From Bullifex porci (GTDB taxonomy: Bacteria > Spirochaetota > Spirochaetia > Sphaerochaetales > Sphaerochaetaceae): a stretch of DNA of 64,000 bases. Each line of letters starts with the position of its first letter. The first letter of the stretch is position 1. The notes beneath the pieces are model-generated. The model was not told the origin of the DNA and did no database searches. It saw nothing but the letters and a program-made list of their open reading frames with translations. The stretch lies in contig NZ_VUNN01000012.1 in NCBI RefSeq assembly GCF_009695635.1, positions 1 through 64,000 of the forward strand, given 5' to 3'. Positions 2,617 to 31,891 of the stretch are shown piece by piece. The position numbers were made by a program, and so were the translations under genes.

Positions 2617-5177
2617 TTATTCAATCACAATATAATTGGGTTGCAATGCGCGTAACAAATAATATCTTCCATCATATCCACTTATTGTGTCACTAGAGCC
2701 AAATCCAAACCAATTCAAAGACGCATTGTTTTTTCTAGTAACGCCTGTTGCATTCTTAATATAGAGATTTGGCCATCCCGGGGCACCAGAAGTAGCTAGT
2801 CCAGCAATTTCTATTTTGTAGTATTTCGTGCTATTGTCTGAGAAAGTTACCTCCCATTCCGCATTTGCAGATTCGGTTTCAGTTACTGTAATGGTCATTT
2901 CCGTTGCATTATCAGCAAAAGAGTAACCGTCTATAACTTGAAATAAGAATTCTACTTCATTAACAGTAAACTCTCCATACGTCCCAAGATAGTTTGTCTT
3001 TGATATAGAAGCACTACCTGATTTGTTAGATTCCAAGGAAGATGTATCCCAAGTCCATTGTCCATTAACCTTTTTAGTACTAAAAGTTGCTTCAGATGTA
3101 TTGAAACTGTAAGTTTTATTATCTAAATTTAATTGTGAGCCACTTTTGAATATTAAAGTATGGCTAGAATGATTTCCACTTGGCAATATTGGCAATCCAT
3201 GTAGAGTGCCAGAAGTTATTTCTAACGAAACTTTCTGTGTACCATCAGTCATGCTTCCAATTGTGTTTATATTTGTAAAATCATCATTATTATTATCATT
3301 TATCACTAAATATGCATAAGGATTAGAATTGTAATTAGTTGCAAGAGTTCCAATCAGTCTTCCTTTTGAATAGCCAGTGCTTATGACATTTTCACTACCG
3401 CCATTACAATTTTTTATATATCCAGCAGAACCAATATTGTATGACCAATTACCAACAACTCCACCAGAAATATTAGTACCATTTATACTAGCTGAATTAG
3501 AACAATTTTCTAATTTTCCCCCCTGTAATACTCCGGCAATACCACCTGATGTTGAAGCTGTTACTTCACCAGTATTATTGCAGTTTATAACAGTAGCTAC
3601 CATATCTATTCTACCACCAATACCACCTGCATGTGAGCTAGAATTTATTTCGCCACTATTAGTACAATTTTTTATTATTGCAGTTCCAGTATCGTTGCTT
3701 TGTATATAACCAACAATACCACCAACATAGGCATATGAAGAAGTACAGGATACAGAACTATAATTTTTACAATCTACAATACTACAGCCAACATTACTTA
3801 AACCAACGATTCCACCAACATTAGAGTTGTTTCCTGTGATTATTCCGTGGTTTTCACAATATGAAACTTCTGTATTATTATTTTTATAATTAATGCCTAG
3901 AATACCACCAGTTTTAGTACCTCCTGCTTTTTCATTTTCTTTTCCATTTATTATGCCGTAGTTTTTACAGCCCGTAATTTCAGTTTTACCACTTGTATTA
4001 TAAGATCTTCCTACGACACCAGCTGGTTCAAAAGCATCAATTGACGCAACATTTATACAATTTTCTATTTTTGTTTCGCCTGTTCCAATAACAAAATCAA
4101 CAATACCTGCAGCGCTATCTAAAGTATGAGTAAATTTACTTTCTCCATCATAAACATAACCATCGCCCTGTTTTGTACCACCAATAACTAAATTAGATAT
4201 TTTTGCACCTTCAACAGTTCCAAAGAAACCTGATGGCATTTCAGCTCTAGGTTCCGTGTATTTAATATTAGTTATTGTATGATTTTGTCCATCAAAAGTT
4301 CCTCTAAAAATTGGTCCGTCTGTATTACTTCTGCTACTATATCCGATAGGAACCCATGTCTTTCCTGTTAGGTCAATATCAGCAATAAGCATAATAATAT
4401 TTTCTTTATAATCCTTACCAGAGTTGACTGATGAGGCAAAATCCATTAATTCTTGGGCATTGCTTATTAGTAATAGGTTAGAAACTACACAATCAAAAGA
4501 TCCTGATATAGTTGTAGATCTGCCACAATTTACAGTTACATTGATAGGTTTACTAGCATTTAGAATACCTTCTGTATCTTTATACGCAAAAGTAACATAA
4601 TGATTACCTGGAGCACATTCTATTTTCATATATGCCCCATTCAGATTTGTTATTTTTACACCATCAACAGAAACATAGTTTGGAAAAACTTTTAATACCT
4701 TGTCATCATTAGTTTTTAGATTAACTGTTACATTGTCAAAAACAATATACCCTTTATCCCCTGTATTTTCATTGACTGGTACAGGAACAGTTACATTAGG
4801 TTCATAGAAATTCCATTTGATTGTTACCTTACTGGTAGTTCCGGCATATACCTTTTTACCATCTTTAATACCCCTAAGGCTTATAGTCCAATCTCCTTGA
4901 GATAAAGTTACAATTCCATCCTTTGGAAGTATTGAATCACTTGTTGCACCATAATTAAATTGTGTTTCACTTTCTTTTGTTGCAGAATAGTGCCAAGTGA
5001 TACTGTCATCATCTAAATTAATTGTTTCAATATCAGTTGTTAGGCTTCTGCCCCCCCGGACGGGGTTAGTCTGACTTTAACGCGTACATCACTAGCATCA
5101 TCTGAACCCATGCTACATGATGTAAATAGTGATGCTATTAAAAGCATTACTAATAACGAAATGGATAATTTCTTCAT
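2617..5177 (-). pseudogene. GLUG-repeat lipoprotein, out of frame at a G7 tract (phase-off or pseudogene)
   Basis: The start codon at 5177 (GGGAGA upstream) gives a lipoprotein signal peptide ending in LFTSC, the same as in the intact paralogue at 29108-31891. After 45 codons the frame stops, because the run at 5050-5056 has seven G (coding strand). Adding one G reopens the frame as SGGGRSLTT and it then stays open to 2617, giving 853 residues. The first ~215 residues match the paralogue. The rest is a passenger with many GGI-G and C-N-G repeats (GLUG-like, about residues 290-560) and a C-terminal beta-rich domain. Such proteins are surface adhesin-like in host-associated bacteria. From 4629 a 670-residue frame with its own ATG exists, but it lacks the signal peptide. 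A sequencing indel, a decayed gene or slipped-strand phase variation would all fit. Confidence 0.75.
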
Positions 5178-5570
5178 TTTTATCTCCCTATTTTATTTTA
5201 TTTCATAAAAAAGCTAAAAAGCTTCTCTATGTAATATTATAAAAACAACATAAAGAAATAATATTTACAGGGAGAAAACGACTCAAAAATCTTACCACCT
5301 ATAAATAAAATTTCTACACTAATAATATATCTAAAAGAAGTTAGTTGTGAATATTTTTTACCTTACTTTAATTTTTTATTTCGAAATTAATAGTAAATAA
5401 CTAATTAGAATAAAAGTGTATTACAAGAAAACTTACCCTTAGAACTGAAAAAAACAATTTTCCCAAAAAATTCTTACCTAAGAAAGTTGATACTTAAAAA
5501 TCCTTCATTTACCCCAACTCTTTTATCCTAACTAGATTTCATCATTCCTCATAATTGGTATAATTTTTCT
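5178..5570. other. Divergent promoter region between lipoprotein and truncated small gene
   Basis: AT-rich spacer, duplicated at 5993-6386. On minus a TATAAT (complement of 5236-5241) lies about 60 bases before the lipoprotein ATG, with a GGGAGA ribosome binding site. On plus TATAAT at 5559-5564 lies six bases before the ATG at 5571. No other gene is seen. Confidence 0.6.
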
Positions 5571-5768
5571 ATGACAATTATTATATGCTTAGACAAAAAC
5601 AACGGTTATCAGTTTGGTGGAAAAAGGCAGTCAACTGATAGAGAACTCAGAAAGAAAATATTAGAACTTGATGATGAAATTAGATGTGATGAATACACTT
5701 CGTCACAATTTGAAGATGATGAAAAAGGTAAGCTTTATGGAAGTAAGGACTTACTTGTTGCACCATAA
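5571..5768 (+). pseudogene. Truncated duplicate of the 128-residue nuclease partner
   Basis: The first 56 or so codons match the intact gene at 6387 almost residue for residue (MTIIICLDKNNGYQFGGKRQ in both). At about 5739 the frame runs across the tandem-duplication junction into antisense lipoprotein sequence and ends nine codons later. It keeps the same TATAAT-six bases-ATG start as the intact copy, so it may still be expressed as a 65-residue peptide. It is most likely a by-product of the duplication. Confidence 0.8.
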
Positions 5769-5992
5769 TTAAATTGTGTTTCACTTACTTTTGTTGCAGA
5801 ATAATACCAAGTGATATTATCATCATCTAAATTAATTGTTTCAAAATCAGTAGTTAGGCTTCTGCCCCCTCCAGATGGGGTAATTTTGACTTTAACGCGA
5901 ACATTACTAGCATCATCTGAACCCATGCTACATGATGTAAATAGTGATGCTATTAAAAGCATTACTAATAACGAAATGGATAATTTCTTCAT
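5735..5992 (-). pseudogene. Lipoprotein N-terminal stub (constant module only)
   Basis: Starts MKKLSISLLVMLLIASLFTS with the lipobox cysteine at residue 21 and follows the paralogue at 29108-31891 for about 80 residues with only a few substitutions. It then stops at the duplication junction (KSLLP). It keeps the leader, promoter and ribosome binding site. It is therefore an N-terminal module with no passenger: either a dead by-product of duplication or a donor/recipient for recombination with the other copies. Confidence 0.85.
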
Positions 5993-6374
5993 TTTTATCC
6001 CCCTATTTTATTTTATTTCATAAAAAAGCTAAAAAGCTTCTTTATGTAATATTATAAAACACCACTAAGAAATAATATTTACAGGGAGAAAAGGAACTAT
6101 AAAATCTCACCACCTATAAATAAGATTTCTACTCTTATAATATAGCTAAAAGATATTATTTGTGAATATTTTTTATCTCACTATAATTTTTTATTTCGAA
6201 ATTAATAGTAAATAACTAATTAGAATAAAAGTGTATTACAAGAAAACTTACCATTTGAACTGAAAAAAAACAATTTTCCCAACAAATTCTTACCTAAGAA
6301 AGTTGATACATAAAAATCCTTCATTTACCCCAACTCTTTTATCATAACTAGATTTCATCATTTCTCTTAATTGG

Positions 6375-6380
6375 TATAAT
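6375..6380 (+). promoter_or_regulatory. TATAAT exactly six bases before an ATG (leaderless-type start)
   Basis: TATAAT at 6375-6380, then six bases, then ATG at 6387, with no Shine-Dalgarno match. The duplicated copy has the same arrangement (5559-5564, ATG 5571). A TSS six to seven bases after a -10 box would fall on the A of ATG. Confidence 0.55.
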
Positions 6381-6386
6381 TTTCCT

Positions 6387-6773
6387 ATGACAATTATTAT
6401 ATGCTTAGACAAAAACAACGGTTATCAGTTTGGTGGAAAAAGGCAGTCAACTGATAGAGAACTTAGAAAGAAAGTATTAGAACTTGCTGATGAAATAAGG
6501 TGTGATGAATACACCGCATCCCAATTTGAAGAGGATGAAAAAAGTATGCTTTATGTTGGTGATGACTATCTTAATACCATAAATGGTACATGCTTTATAG
6601 AAAAAGGTGATATATCAAATATAAGCTATGACAAGTTAGTTGTATTCTGGTGGAACAGATCATACCCAACAACTAAAAAATTTATCATCCCTCAAGGCTT
6701 TAAATCGGTTTCAAAAGAAAACTTTAAAGGCTACAGCCACGATAAAATAACAATGGAGATTTTTACTAAATGA
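6387..6773 (+). CDS. Small cytosolic protein translationally coupled to a secreted nuclease
   Basis: A 128-residue protein without signal peptide. Its N-terminal half has a GKRQS-DRELRKK motif and its C-terminal half VVFWWNRSYPTTKKF and a YSHDKITMEIF end. I recall short Firmicute proteins of this shape, sometimes mislabelled ribonuclease Z, near DNA-entry-type nuclease genes. No metallo-beta-lactamase motif is present, so that label would be wrong. It overlaps the nuclease start by ATGA, so the two are co-translated. A regulatory or inhibitory role for the partner nuclease is possible but unsupported. Expression seems to start from a leaderless-type promoter. A truncated duplicate lies upstream at 5571. 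Confidence 0.75.
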   Translation: MTIIICLDKNNGYQFGGKRQSTDRELRKKVLELADEIRCDEYTASQFEEDEKSMLYVGDDYLNTINGTCFIEKGDISNISYDKLVVFWWNRSYPTTKKFIIPQGFKSVSKENFKGYSHDKITMEIFTK

Positions 6774-15356: not shown

Positions 15357-16191
15357 AGTACATAACGTTGGACACATGGAATAATTATTTAGTTATTTTA
15401 TCTTCTAAAAGCTCAAACATTTTTTCCTTATGCTTTTTTGCTTTTTCTTGTGTCCATCCAATAGGAACTTCATTCATGATCTTAGCCATTTCGTTAAGCT
15501 TTGGATTTTGATTTACTACTGACTTCAAGTATTCATATTTTGCCATGGGTGGTAAGTTTGAGAATCTTGAGTTTTCTGAAACAGAGAGTAAAGCCAGGTT
15601 ACCAAAAGAGTTCAAGTCCTCATCTTCCCAATACTCACCCTCAGATGGATGTTGTGGATAAAAGTGCTCTATTGAATTACGAAATCTGAAGCTATAGTTT
15701 GCATACTCTTCTTTAGTCGTAGCCAGAATATAATCTAGAAAATTAAATACTATTCTCTGGATACCAAAACCTGATGTTTTAGTGTATTCTGCTTCCTTCA
15801 CTTTTTTTCGAAGCATACTGTTCTAGTAGTAGAACAATATCTACTTCTTCGTTCTTATCCAATTCTGAAAGAACCTGTCCAATCCAATGCATATTATTAG
15901 GGGAAGTGTAAGTTACACGTAAGCATGACTCAATGAGAATAAGATTGCGGTTATCTATTTGGTATTGTTCATCTATGTTTCCTGCTTCATCTTTTTGTAT
16001 TGCCAAGACCCAGTTACCTTCATCAAATACGTTTTTCCTCTTAATGATGTACTTGTCAAACAGGAGTCTATATTTCAGAAGCTTGTAGATAAAACTTTGT
16101 GCAGCCTCTTTAGTTTCCCAATTCTTACTCATGGGACTATCAAGAAGTTTCTTCTCATCAAGAGAAAAGCCTTCTTTTCCGTCAGATGCTG

Positions 16192-18071
16192 GTCGAGTAG
16201 ACAGATGCATCGTCTAACCTCCAGTGCTAAACAAATGCATCCAACCCTCACAGAACCGGACGTGCGCTATTAACGCATACGGCTCTTCATTTTAGTCTTT
16301 TGTTGTTACCAAAGCTTTACATAAATCTTAGGATTTACAATTGGTGACTGTTTCATGAAAATTTTGTACTTTTCCCAATTAATCCTCTTCTTCTGCCCTC
16401 GGCGTCTTAATACTCTGTATAGTGTTTTGATACAGTAGTGTCTAAATGAACAGAGACTTTTTATATTTCCACTTACACCATAGTAACGATAGTGTCCAAT
16501 CAACTTAACATTTAGCTTAGCTACAATGTCAGAGATGGGACAATGCATCATGCTATACAACCATTCTTTAATGGCTTGCCTTTTAGCTTTCATCTTCTTT
16601 TTACTAGAAAGAACTACTACAACGTAAAAGCTTTTATGGACCATTCCATTGTGAAAAGAAAAACCAAGGAATTCAAATGATTCTTTTGAACCACTTCCTT
16701 TACCAAAAGGTAGTATTCTAGTTTTATCTTCAGCAATCTCAAGACCAAATTTTGCAAGTCTCTTTGGAAGTACCGAGTAAAATGCTTTAGCATCCTCTTC
16801 GTACTGGAAGCATGCTAGAAAGTCATCTGCATACCTAATGATATATGCTTCACCTTTTACATGTTTCTTTACTACTTTCTCAAACCATAGGTCTAAAACG
16901 TAATGAAGATATACATTAGCAATATAAGGACTTATTAATCCCCCCTGGGGAGCGCCTAAGGTGCTTTCTTGCATTATACCTTTATCAATTATTCCAGCTT
17001 TGAGAAATCTTATGATATATCTGATAAAGTTTTCATCGGCAATATCGTTTCTAAGAAACTTTATTATCCATTCATGACTCATATTGTCAAAGAACCCTTT
17101 TATATCTGCTTCAACAACCCAACCTATAGGACGTTTATATATAATATCTCTAATAGCTTTGATTGCATCATGCGCACTTCTATCAGGTCTAAAACCATAT
17201 GAACAATCTAGAAATCTTGGTTCATATACACCATTTAATACTTTAGCAAGTACACCTTGAACAAGCTTATCTTCATATGATGGTATACCTAGAGGACGAA
17301 GTTTTCCATTAGCCTTGGGAATGTATACTCTTTTTACCGCTTGCGGTCTATAAGAGAATGTTTTCATTCGTTTAAGCAAATTATCAAGATTTGCATCAAG
17401 GTTCTTGTTATATTCATCTTTGGTAATATAATCAACTCCAACAGCCTTGTTACTAAGTTGTAGCTTATGCTCTTTCTCAAGATTCACTTTATTGACGTAG
17501 TGAATTAACGTCTGAAGCTTGTTATGCTTCCTTGATAACAACATTATTTCCTTTTCGTAATTTTCCACAATTTACAGAGCCTCCAGTACTCCATGTGTCC
17601 ACTCTAAGGAACCGACTAAAATGTGTCTCCCTTCGCTCCACTGTGTTTCCACAGTTTCATCACTACTATGAAGACATCCGACTACTTACATTTACGACTT
17701 GAATCTTGCTTTTTACACTTGTATTCAAACGTTCTGCTCATTTTGAGCCAGATAAAATGTAAGTCCTCCCAGGTATGACATACACACCTTGCACACTCGC
17801 CACGCTCTACGACCCCGATGAGTTCTCAACAATCATCACCTTTATCGATTGTTTCATACTGTCTGCTGCCCGCTTAAAAGCATCGACACTCATACTGTAT
17901 TATTACGAGGCCCAATCGCATTCAGGTTTCCCTTGCGGCTCTTGTGCTTTCCTACCTACGCTTAAACCTAATCTCACGACTTCGGCTCCAAGGCTGGATA
18001 CTGACTGCTGGCTAGGCTTTGTCAGATTGGGAGTTTCACCCAACTATGTGTATGACACCGAACTGGCGCAC
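16192..18071 (-). mobile_element. Group II intron, copy 1 (1,880 bp), sense-inserted in the DUF262/DUF1524 gene
   Basis: The 5' end reads GTGCGCCAG and the 3' end CTACTCGAC. Domain V is a canonical 34-nt hairpin at 16252-16285 (GAGCCGTATGCG...GTCCGGTTCT), followed by a domain VI stem to the 3' end; about 500 bases of structured RNA (17569-18071) precede the reverse-transcriptase gene in domain IV. The ends are fixed by comparison with copy 2 at 24620-26499 and by restored exon frame. It lies in the same orientation as its host gene, so splicing could repair the message. Flanking exon motif GCTTA^C. Confidence 0.93.
16306..17568 (-). CDS. ltrA: Group II intron reverse transcriptase/maturase (copy 1)
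   Basis: A 420-residue intron-encoded protein. RT blocks are visible: RPLGIPSYEDKLVQ (about 92-105), CSYGFRPDRSAHDAI (about 123-137), EADIKGFFDNM, GAPQGGLISP (about 208-217), and the catalytic YADDF (about 246-250). The maturase (X) domain with a GIIN-like region fills the C-terminus (about 330-420). There is no HNH endonuclease domain, so mobility probably relies on replication forks or other DNA ends. It helps its own intron to splice and reverse-splices it into DNA. It is identical in sequence to the copy at 24734-25996. Confidence 0.95.
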   Translation of the reverse strand: MENYEKEIMLLSRKHNKLQTLIHYVNKVNLEKEHKLQLSNKAVGVDYITKDEYNKNLDANLDNLLKRMKTFSYRPQAVKRVYIPKANGKLRPLGIPSYEDKLVQGVLAKVLNGVYEPRFLDCSYGFRPDRSAHDAIKAIRDIIYKRPIGWVVEADIKGFFDNMSHEWIIKFLRNDIADENFIRYIIRFLKAGIIDKGIMQESTLGAPQGGLISPYIANVYLHYVLDLWFEKVVKKHVKGEAYIIRYADDFLACFQYEEDAKAFYSVLPKRLAKFGLEIAEDKTRILPFGKGSGSKESFEFLGFSFHNGMVHKSFYVVVVLSSKKKMKAKRQAIKEWLYSMMHCPISDIVAKLNVKLIGHYRYYGVSGNIKSLCSFRHYCIKTLYRVLRRRGQKKRINWEKYKIFMKQSPIVNPKIYVKLW

Positions 18072-29107: not shown

Positions 29108-31891
29108 TTATTTTCCATAAACCTTTACACCATCAACTGTTACAAACAGGTGATCAGCAACCATGGAATTCTTATTTGCCCAAAGTGTAGTTCCGGTTGA
29201 TATACCTTCTGGATTAATTGCAAAACCATCAACTGTTGTATTTGTAACATTCAGAATGTAAGTTGCATTATAGTCATTTCCTGTTTCAATAGCAGCCTTC
29301 TCCGTATTAAGAGTATTATCATCATTGAAAACACAATCAGTTACTGTCAAAACTGTTGTAGGTGTCTCAGAAGATCCTGCTCCACCATACAAGAGTACTG
29401 CCTTTCCACCGGAATTGAATGTACAACCAGTAAGAGTTACTTCTCTACCTCCCCATGTCCAAATTGCATAGTCGTTCTTATTTTCAAAGATACAGTTATT
29501 GAACTCTTCTACTCCTGCATAGAGAGTAATCTTTCCCAGCATTTTACAATCTTTGTAAGTAACCTTATTTGTATGGGCTAAGCCACCATAGTTACCTTTT
29601 TTTTGACCCTGAATAGTCATTTTTTCGAATTCTAGAGTAGCATTTTTCGGATATGCAATTTCATCCTTATTATTAAGAATATTTAATTTTGTTCCATCTC
29701 CACTACCAACCATTTTCACATTTTTGTTCTCGCACTTAGCATCAGGAAGAGTAAATTCACCTTCTGGTAGATGTATGATAATTTTATCTGATGCATTATT
29801 TAAAGCAGCAGAAAATTCATCATCAGAAGATACAGCAAAAGCAATATTTCCTACTATGCTACATGTAGCACCATTCATTATACTGTTTATAGTTGTATCT
29901 TCTGCAATTGTTCCATTAACACTTACATCGTAATTAGTCGTCTTATAAATATAAATACCCGATCTATTTTCTGAGAACTTAATTGTTGCATTCTCAAGTT
30001 TAACTGAAACAGGATATGGATAAGAATTGTTTGAAACATGATTTCCTACAACTAGAGATGCTAATGGTACCTGATTACCTTGTCCCCAGTCATTTGTCAT
30101 ATTATCGGTCCAATCATATCCACTTGTTTTTGTACCAGTTGCTTCAATAGTAGAATTCTTAATGACAGAATTAGTACCACCTCTTAAAATCATTCCTTGA
30201 CGATTTCCTTTAATGGTAGAATTCTCTATATAAACTTTTCCTTGTACATTAAATAGAATACCTGTATTATCTTGGTCTTCAGATGAAGTCTCTACAATTG
30301 AATCCTTGACTTCAATGTATAAGGCTTCGGATTCTTCTTTAGAAGCATTTGTTGCAATACCATATACAGCAGCCTTAATCTTAGAGCCATTAATTACACG
30401 AACACTCATGTTATTATTAGTTTCTGAAAGGTAAACGCCACCATATGCAGCCTCAACATTCATATTATCAATTATCAAACCAGATGATTGATACATTGAA
30501 AAGGTATGTCCAATTGATGATTTTATTGTTCCATTCTTTACGGATAGTACATATTCAGAATCAGATTTATTTAAGTATAAACCATATTGAGTTTCAATTG
30601 TTTTAGAATTTAGATCAATAGTAAAATTCTTATTTGGAATAGAAATACTATTAACTGATACATTACTAAGCAATTTAACGATCTGTTCATCATCTACTTC
30701 TGCAATAGCAGTTACAAGTTTTGTGTAAGGGATACCCGTACTTACGTTAAGAGCTTCTACATTTGCAACTACAATATACTCTGAGAAGTGATTTGTCTTA
30801 AATACAAGTTCTCCTGTTTCTCTATTATAGCTTACTAAGATTGGCTGATCTCCCTCACCAGTATACTTAACTTGAACATCTTCAAGACCAGCAAGAATAT
30901 AAGTTGTAATTACAACATATTCATTATTAAAACTTGTTACTTCTTGCTCATTTACTTTAAGAGAAATATCTATACCAGCAACAGCAGGTGTATTTGCTAC
31001 AGAGAAATCACCTGCAGATTTTACGCTTAAATTAAGAACTGCAGTTGTAGCCTCTTCAGGAAGTGCTCCTTGTGGGAATGTTACTGTTGTTTGGTTCAAA
31101 TTACTTGATGTATTAGCAGGAGCAACTAAAACATTTACAACTGTATCTCCTTCTTTCTTTACTTCAATTGCTTGTTCTACTTTAGTTAGAGAACTACTTC
31201 CACTAGTGATTTTACTTGGGTCTATATTTCCACTAATTGTAGTTTCTCTACCACTTATTACTTCTACAACTAAAGACATTGATGATTTGACATCACCATT
31301 ATCACTTCTATATTCAAATGTTACTGTATGAGGACCAGGGATACATTCAAGTCTCATATTAACACCATTGAAATTCATTATTATAGTACTATCAATAGAA
31401 GCAAAGTTAGGAGTTTTTAATTCTTCATTAACAGGAATTTTTACATCAGTTAAAACAATATAACCATTATCACCTGTACTTTGCTTAACTGGTACAGGAA
31501 CTGTTACATTTGGTTCATAGAAATTCCATTTGATTGTTACCTTACTGGTAGTACCGGCATAAACCTTTTTACCATCTTTAATACCCCAAAGACCTATAGA
31601 CCAGTCACCTTGAGATAAAGTTACTATTCCATCTTTTGGAAGTAAGGAGTCACTTGTTGCACCATAATTAAATTGTGTTTCACTTACTTTTGTTGCAGAA
31701 TAATACCAAGTGATATTATCATCATCTAAATTAATTGTTTCAAAATCAGTAGTTAGGCTTCTGCCCCCTCCAGATGGGGTAATTTTGACTTTAACGCGAA
31801 CATCACTAGCATCATCTGAACCCATGCTACATGATGTAAATAGTGATGCTATTAAAAGCATTACTAATAACGAAATGGATAATTTCTTCAT
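29108..31891 (-). CDS. Large beta-helix lipoprotein, intact member of the modular family
   Basis: 927 residues. Signal peptide with lipobox SLFTSC (Cys21), then a constant module (to about residue 230: SGGGRSLTT, DGIVTLSQGDWSIGLWGIKD, KVTIKWNFYEPNVTVPVPV, GRETTISG) shared with the genes at 2617 and 5735. A linker domain follows, then a passenger (about 420-900) full of short beta-strand repeats such as GIYIYK, IKNSTIEAT, FNNCIFENK and TGCTFNSGG, typical of right-handed beta-helix (pectate-lyase-like) folds. It is probably exported and surface or periplasmic, with carbohydrate-binding or adhesin function by analogy only. Its SD is GGGGGA before the ATG. This copy has TCTGGAGGGGGC where the 2617 gene has a pure G run, so it is not prone to slippage there. 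Confidence 0.85.
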   Translation of the reverse strand: MKKLSISLLVMLLIASLFTSCSMGSDDASDVRVKVKITPSGGGRSLTTDFETINLDDDNITWYYSATKVSETQFNYGATSDSLLPKDGIVTLSQGDWSIGLWGIKDGKKVYAGTTSKVTIKWNFYEPNVTVPVPVKQSTGDNGYIVLTDVKIPVNEELKTPNFASIDSTIIMNFNGVNMRLECIPGPHTVTFEYRSDNGDVKSSMSLVVEVISGRETTISGNIDPSKITSGSSSLTKVEQAIEVKKEGDTVVNVLVAPANTSSNLNQTTVTFPQGALPEEATTAVLNLSVKSAGDFSVANTPAVAGIDISLKVNEQEVTSFNNEYVVITTYILAGLEDVQVKYTGEGDQPILVSYNRETGELVFKTNHFSEYIVVANVEALNVSTGIPYTKLVTAIAEVDDEQIVKLLSNVSVNSISIPNKNFTIDLNSKTIETQYGLYLNKSDSEYVLSVKNGTIKSSIGHTFSMYQSSGLIIDNMNVEAAYGGVYLSETNNNMSVRVINGSKIKAAVYGIATNASKEESEALYIEVKDSIVETSSEDQDNTGILFNVQGKVYIENSTIKGNRQGMILRGGTNSVIKNSTIEATGTKTSGYDWTDNMTNDWGQGNQVPLASLVVGNHVSNNSYPYPVSVKLENATIKFSENRSGIYIYKTTNYDVSVNGTIAEDTTINSIMNGATCSIVGNIAFAVSSDDEFSAALNNASDKIIIHLPEGEFTLPDAKCENKNVKMVGSGDGTKLNILNNKDEIAYPKNATLEFEKMTIQGQKKGNYGGLAHTNKVTYKDCKMLGKITLYAGVEEFNNCIFENKNDYAIWTWGGREVTLTGCTFNSGGKAVLLYGGAGSSETPTTVLTVTDCVFNDDNTLNTEKAAIETGNDYNATYILNVTNTTVDGFAINPEGISTGTTLWANKNSMVADHLFVTVDGVKVYGK

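Follow-up and report, generated by a model that had tools for sequence, protein, structure and literature searches.

The lipoprotein gene examined here, located in a 64-kb stretch of DNA (the window), is very probably a translational contingency locus that undergoes slipped-strand phase variation and was captured in its OFF state. Slippage-driven phase variation is a known mechanism, e.g. in Treponema pallidum and Neisseria. Two observations, namely a run of seven G's that leaves this gene out of frame and the repeated occurrence of G runs before or inside lipoprotein genes of related bacteria, make a random on/off switch, currently off, the most likely explanation.

The host genome comprises 2.42 Mb in 67 contigs (the window lies on contig C4) and has a GC content of about 34%, as calculated for the window. 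RpoB identities of 81-84% to Sphaerochaeta and to Sphaerochaetaceae MAGs indicate that the host is a member of the Sphaerochaetaceae; Treponema was ruled out by the same comparison (about 72%). A 3.1-kb contig of this genome (C37, locus L274) contains a frame resembling a ribosomal-protection-type tetracycline resistance protein.

The minus strand of the window reads CCG-TCC-GGGGGGG-CAG-AAG-CCT-AAC, which confirms the TCC-G7-CAG arrangement reported in the original prediction, and within the 64 kb this is the only G/C run of at least 7 bases. The gene starts with an ATG at position 5177 and continues for 40 codons up to the tract, beyond which the initial frame (...LTPS, G7, GGAEA) encounters a TAA at 5042-5040. 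It thus terminates at codon 46 and yields a product of 45 aa. An alternative frame is open for 811 codons, from just 5' of the run to a stop ending at 2617, and no second inactivating change was detected across these codons. The signal peptide and the ribosome-binding site (RBS) located 5' of the tract are also intact. The homopolymer is uninterrupted and lies within a gene that is otherwise intact on both sides, so that a change of one base would switch the frame, as had been predicted. The tract occupies codon 41 onward and is not placed between -35 and -10 promoter boxes. The upstream region is nearly identical to those of the paralogues described below, and no clear promoter was distinguishable in it above chance (5178..5400). 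The features discussed are collected in Table 1.

Table 1. Coordinates of the tract, the gene parts, the related copies in the window and the G9 runs of the host genome
Feature	Position	Strand
Proposed slippage tract: G7, at its OFF length, following codon 40	5051..5057	-
5' segment encoding the N-terminus with the lipoprotein signal peptide MKKLSISLLVMLLIASLFTSC, up to the out-of-frame TAA	5040..5177	-
811 codons of the second frame, open beyond the tract, with GLUG-type glycine-rich repeats	2617..5050	-
Upstream region and ribosome-binding site (AGGGAGATAAAAATG)	5178..5400	-
Truncated copy of the N-terminal part (85 codons), in frame, with the run interrupted (GGAGGGGGC)	5735..5992	-
Paralogue of 927 codons, intact, with the run interrupted (GGAGGGGGC)	29108..31891	-
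G9 between TTGACA and TATTAC, spacing 19, ~105 bases 5' of a three-gene set	C1:130543	
G9, in frame, ornithine-cyclodeaminase-like gene immediately following a LicD gene	C12:195359 (L022:3316-5123)	
G9, lipoprotein with Flg_new and beta-helix domains, tract split by an IS1182-like element	C23:16914	

Four copies in the host genome share approximately 200 bases of upstream sequence and the N-terminal codons, and the three long ones are alike over about 150 codons and divergent beyond. Two of the four carry the interrupted run GGAGGGGGC, at which slippage is not expected, and the other two carry pure runs that share the codon position but differ in length, with G7 in the window gene and G8 in a paralogue located on another contig (C1:87740), which is in frame and open over 908 codons. 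The homologous tract therefore has two lengths within one genome, in paralogues rather than in strains. The paralogues had originally been described as having an interrupted run, which holds for the copies starting at 5992 and 31891 but not for the C1 paralogue, whereas the 853-codon frame postulated for the window gene is arithmetically correct, being the length that the gene would have if its tract were in phase as in this open paralogue.

Comparison of the window gene with the G8 paralogue over the 90 codons following the tract revealed 7 synonymous and 2 nonsynonymous changes, for 58 synonymous and 212 nonsynonymous sites (binomial p=5e-4). This indicates that the post-tract frame has been translated and maintained by purifying selection, and hence that the frame break is either recent or reversible; the dN/dS signal is a historical one and would look the same had a loss been fixed only very recently. 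The gene might alternatively be regarded as an ordinary recent pseudogene, i.e. a redundant member of a paralogue family in which a practically irreversible one-base loss became fixed. The existence of paralogues would fit such a history, as would the truncated neighbouring copy, which shows that the locus is undergoing rearrangement, and a G7 length that by itself does not exceed chance expectation. We nevertheless consider it unlikely, because the open paralogue likewise has a pure run at the homologous position, and long G runs in the host genome are almost confined to such places and recur throughout the family. The tract is probably young and restricted to this lineage, judging from its absence in a distant homologue of the N-terminal domain (genome G125); no closely related loci were found in the genomes of named species.

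The truncated copy arose through tandem duplication of 818 bp. The two units (window 4925-5738 and 5739-6554) are 92.5% identical and comprise the N-terminal coding part of the lipoprotein gene, signal peptide included, its promoter and part of the divergent neighbour gene. This raises another explanation, in which an intact gene is regained by recombination between the 818-bp repeats, through crossing-over or gene conversion with the partial copy as donor. The duplication does cover the promoter, the signal peptide and the G run, and the paralogues resemble one another upstream and over their first ~150 codons but not further on, a pattern in keeping with recombination. The 7.5% divergence of the two copies, however, means that conversion is not frequent, and the pure G runs would be left unexplained. 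Recombinational switching is therefore quite improbable as the sole mechanism, although recombination may operate alongside slippage.

Besides the lipobox signal peptide at its N-terminus, the only recognised domain of the encoded protein is a set of GLUG repeats in the C-terminal part (PF07581, E=1.4e-4). The lipoproteins had no match in NCBIfam, and a sequence search of solved structures gave no match for the lipoprotein. A structure model of the 817-aa post-tract frame, built from a four-row alignment, was unusable (mean pLDDT 31.7). The product is presumably surface exposed. In the switch that we propose, slipped-strand mispairing during replication would add G's to, or remove them from, the pure run after codon 40. 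Lengths restoring the open phase would allow synthesis of the full lipoprotein of ~850 aa, as in the G8 paralogue, while at other lengths translation would halt just past the signal peptide, the OFF product being a 45-residue lipopeptide. We infer that the tract length changes at a high rate within a population, with consequent switching, which would presumably alter surface properties of the cell and hence its interactions with phages or host antibodies, or its adhesion.

The distribution of long G runs across the host genome was analysed by pattern searches, which yielded 24 G6, 1 G7, 1 G8 and 3 G9 runs, and none longer. A single G7 is within chance, as 1 to 5 are expected by extrapolation, whereas G8-G9 runs are in excess (4 seen versus about 0.06-1.2 expected). 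For runs of G9 or longer, 0.003-0.24 are expected at run-length ratios of 0.05-0.2 (derived from the window and the genome), and no more than 0.5 even with the ratio raised to 0.25, the highest used, against 3 seen. The longer runs are also distinctive in their location: four of the five with at least 7 G's lie at the N-terminus or promoter of a lipoprotein gene, compared with 1 of 24 G6 runs (Fisher p=0.001). The sole G6 in such a position is the other half of the IS-split tract at C23:16914, and the remainder occur in housekeeping, mobile or intergenic sequence, or deep within a gene. Chance as the origin of the lone G7 could not be rejected from its length, but placement and the paralogue evidence together reject it. 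Two open-frame copies on the minus strand of the window, at 16940 and 25368 (NKAVGVDYITKDEY), are identical in the stretches printed (the G6 context and N-terminus) and apparently encode a group II intron reverse transcriptase.

In the three-gene set preceded by the G9 at C1:130543, genes 2 and 3 encode lipoproteins, the latter a distant member of the window family. The G9 on C12, adjacent to a LicD gene, possibly marks a phase-variable surface-decoration locus. Another phenomenon was connected with the IS1182-like element on C23 (L023:1763-3923), which lies within the G tract and is flanked by G6 at its left end and G9 at its right end. In a genome of another species (G006), the right end of the same element abuts a G9 run preceding a different lipoprotein gene (C37, L078:815-840), and a left end abuts G5 (L217). 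Elements of this type may insert preferentially into G runs.

It should also be considered that the G7 might be an assembly error, the real tract being of another length and the gene simply open. The draft status of the genome (67 contigs, probably a metagenome assembly) means that one homopolymer base may be wrong, and another homopolymer-associated frame break is present in the window: an A7 at 15802-15808 (minus strand) forms the junction of two 143-codon frames resembling one broken gene, and represents either a second frame break of this kind or an assembly error. On the other hand, the genes of the window are mostly intact, with this single other break in 64 kb, and short-read platforms normally read runs of 7 G correctly. 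We therefore regard an error as very unlikely; even if it were real, a pure tract like that of the paralogue would remain, and the gene would still be a contingency candidate. A further point against a contingency locus is the tract length, seven G's being among the shortest runs at which slippage is measurable.

The case for phase variation is strengthened by the relatives of the host. Runs of at least 8 G's are present in all 16 genomes of the genus, many of them G9-G10, and in those genomes that were read out, in-frame runs soon after signal peptides recur in unrelated genes. In one genome (G001) an unrelated lipoprotein or signal-peptide gene (MRRIVIVLSALLACMLAGC...) has 45 codons followed by an in-frame G9, and another (G007) has one G9 in frame and one G10 out of frame after ...LLFSCDGTTSTPD. 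Several G8 runs in GC-rich relatives such as G007 look incidental, for which reason not all G8 runs were counted as contingency sites. A DNA-methyltransferase-like gene (DPPYGD motif) of genome G008 contains two G9 tracts 92 bases apart (L218, C1:9765 and 9857), and in G007 a G9 follows an HPTQKP motif (L090); both are candidate phase-variable methyltransferases, judging from their motifs.

In a second form, the run is located between the -35 and -10 boxes (TTGACA-N7/8-G7-11-TAnnnT; loci L184-L213), where the switch would be transcriptional and not, as at the window gene, translational. This pattern was matched 14 times in the genus versus 0 for the reversed pattern, at 47 sites in 21 of the 139 genomes of the family (reversed control, 0), and about 141 times in 53 of the 393 genomes of the phylum (reversed pattern, 3), the last figure being a table sum that includes a few overlapping matches. 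Within the family, five genera have the promoter form ahead of lipoprotein genes, and it occurs across the phylum as well, where in some genomes (such as G454 and G478) the runs extend well beyond G11. The first downstream gene encodes a lipobox protein in 23 of 30 promoter-type cases, compared with 28 of 277 background ORFs, a set which is itself enriched for such loci. Orthologous promoters in G039 and G046 (L190 and L210) contain G8 and G9, respectively. The prediction of a contingency locus in the window thus gains support from the pure-G8 open paralogue, from the genome- and family-wide association of poly-G with lipoprotein genes, and from conservation of the post-tract frame.

Taken more broadly, it is probable that the Sphaerochaetaceae and much of the Spirochaetota possess a genome-wide poly-G system of promoter-spacer and in-frame runs acting jointly on a large and fast-evolving set of lipoprotein genes, the window gene included as an in-frame member. 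If so, cells of gut commensals and pathogens alike would each carry their own random assortment of lipoproteins at the surface. Spirochaete poly-G phase variation is known mainly from T. pallidum, where it has been studied as immune evasion; that gut Sphaerochaetaceae share this architecture, here directed at lipoproteins, suggests that it is ancient and general among spirochaetes, with phages or competition perhaps driving it in addition to host immunity. Many annotated "broken" genes in draft genomes of these bacteria are then probably just switched off. A literature search of a limited collection found no paper in which Sphaerochaeta and phase variation appear together, and none on the switching of spirochaete lipoproteins by poly-G runs in metagenome-assembled genomes; the scale of the mechanism in Sphaerochaetaceae appears to be undescribed in the literature searched.

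Within T. pallidum isolates the length of poly-G runs is variable, and the runs influence transcription (PMC7864442). The parallel with this species drawn in the original prediction is sound as an analogy, but the host belongs to the Sphaerochaetaceae and the best-studied T. pallidum loci act at promoters, not within the reading frame. As in tprE/G/J/L and tp0126 of T. pallidum (PMC7864442), pure runs of about 7-11 G's are associated with genes of surface proteins (here presumed ones) in a spirochaete, and tp0126 resembles the promoter-type sites of the relatives in having its run placed between -35 and -10. The T. pallidum examples studied in depth, however, are promoter runs before outer-membrane proteins whose length variation was measured, whereas the window locus, known from its sequence, has a run inside the reading frame of a lipoprotein gene in another spirochaete family. 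The poly-G spacer of the Neisseria porA promoter, which alters the -35/-10 spacing, has the same architecture as the TTGACA-N7/8-Gn-TAnnnT sites, a likeness that extends to the sites of relatives and possibly to C1:130543, but not to the window tract. The translational poly-G/poly-C loci of Neisseria, Campylobacter and Helicobacter belong to a different phylum and gene family, and switching at the window gene is predicted from its sequence; what they have in common with it is an early pure run at which a single base would restore or disrupt the frame, in a gene that, at the window locus, presumably encodes a surface determinant.
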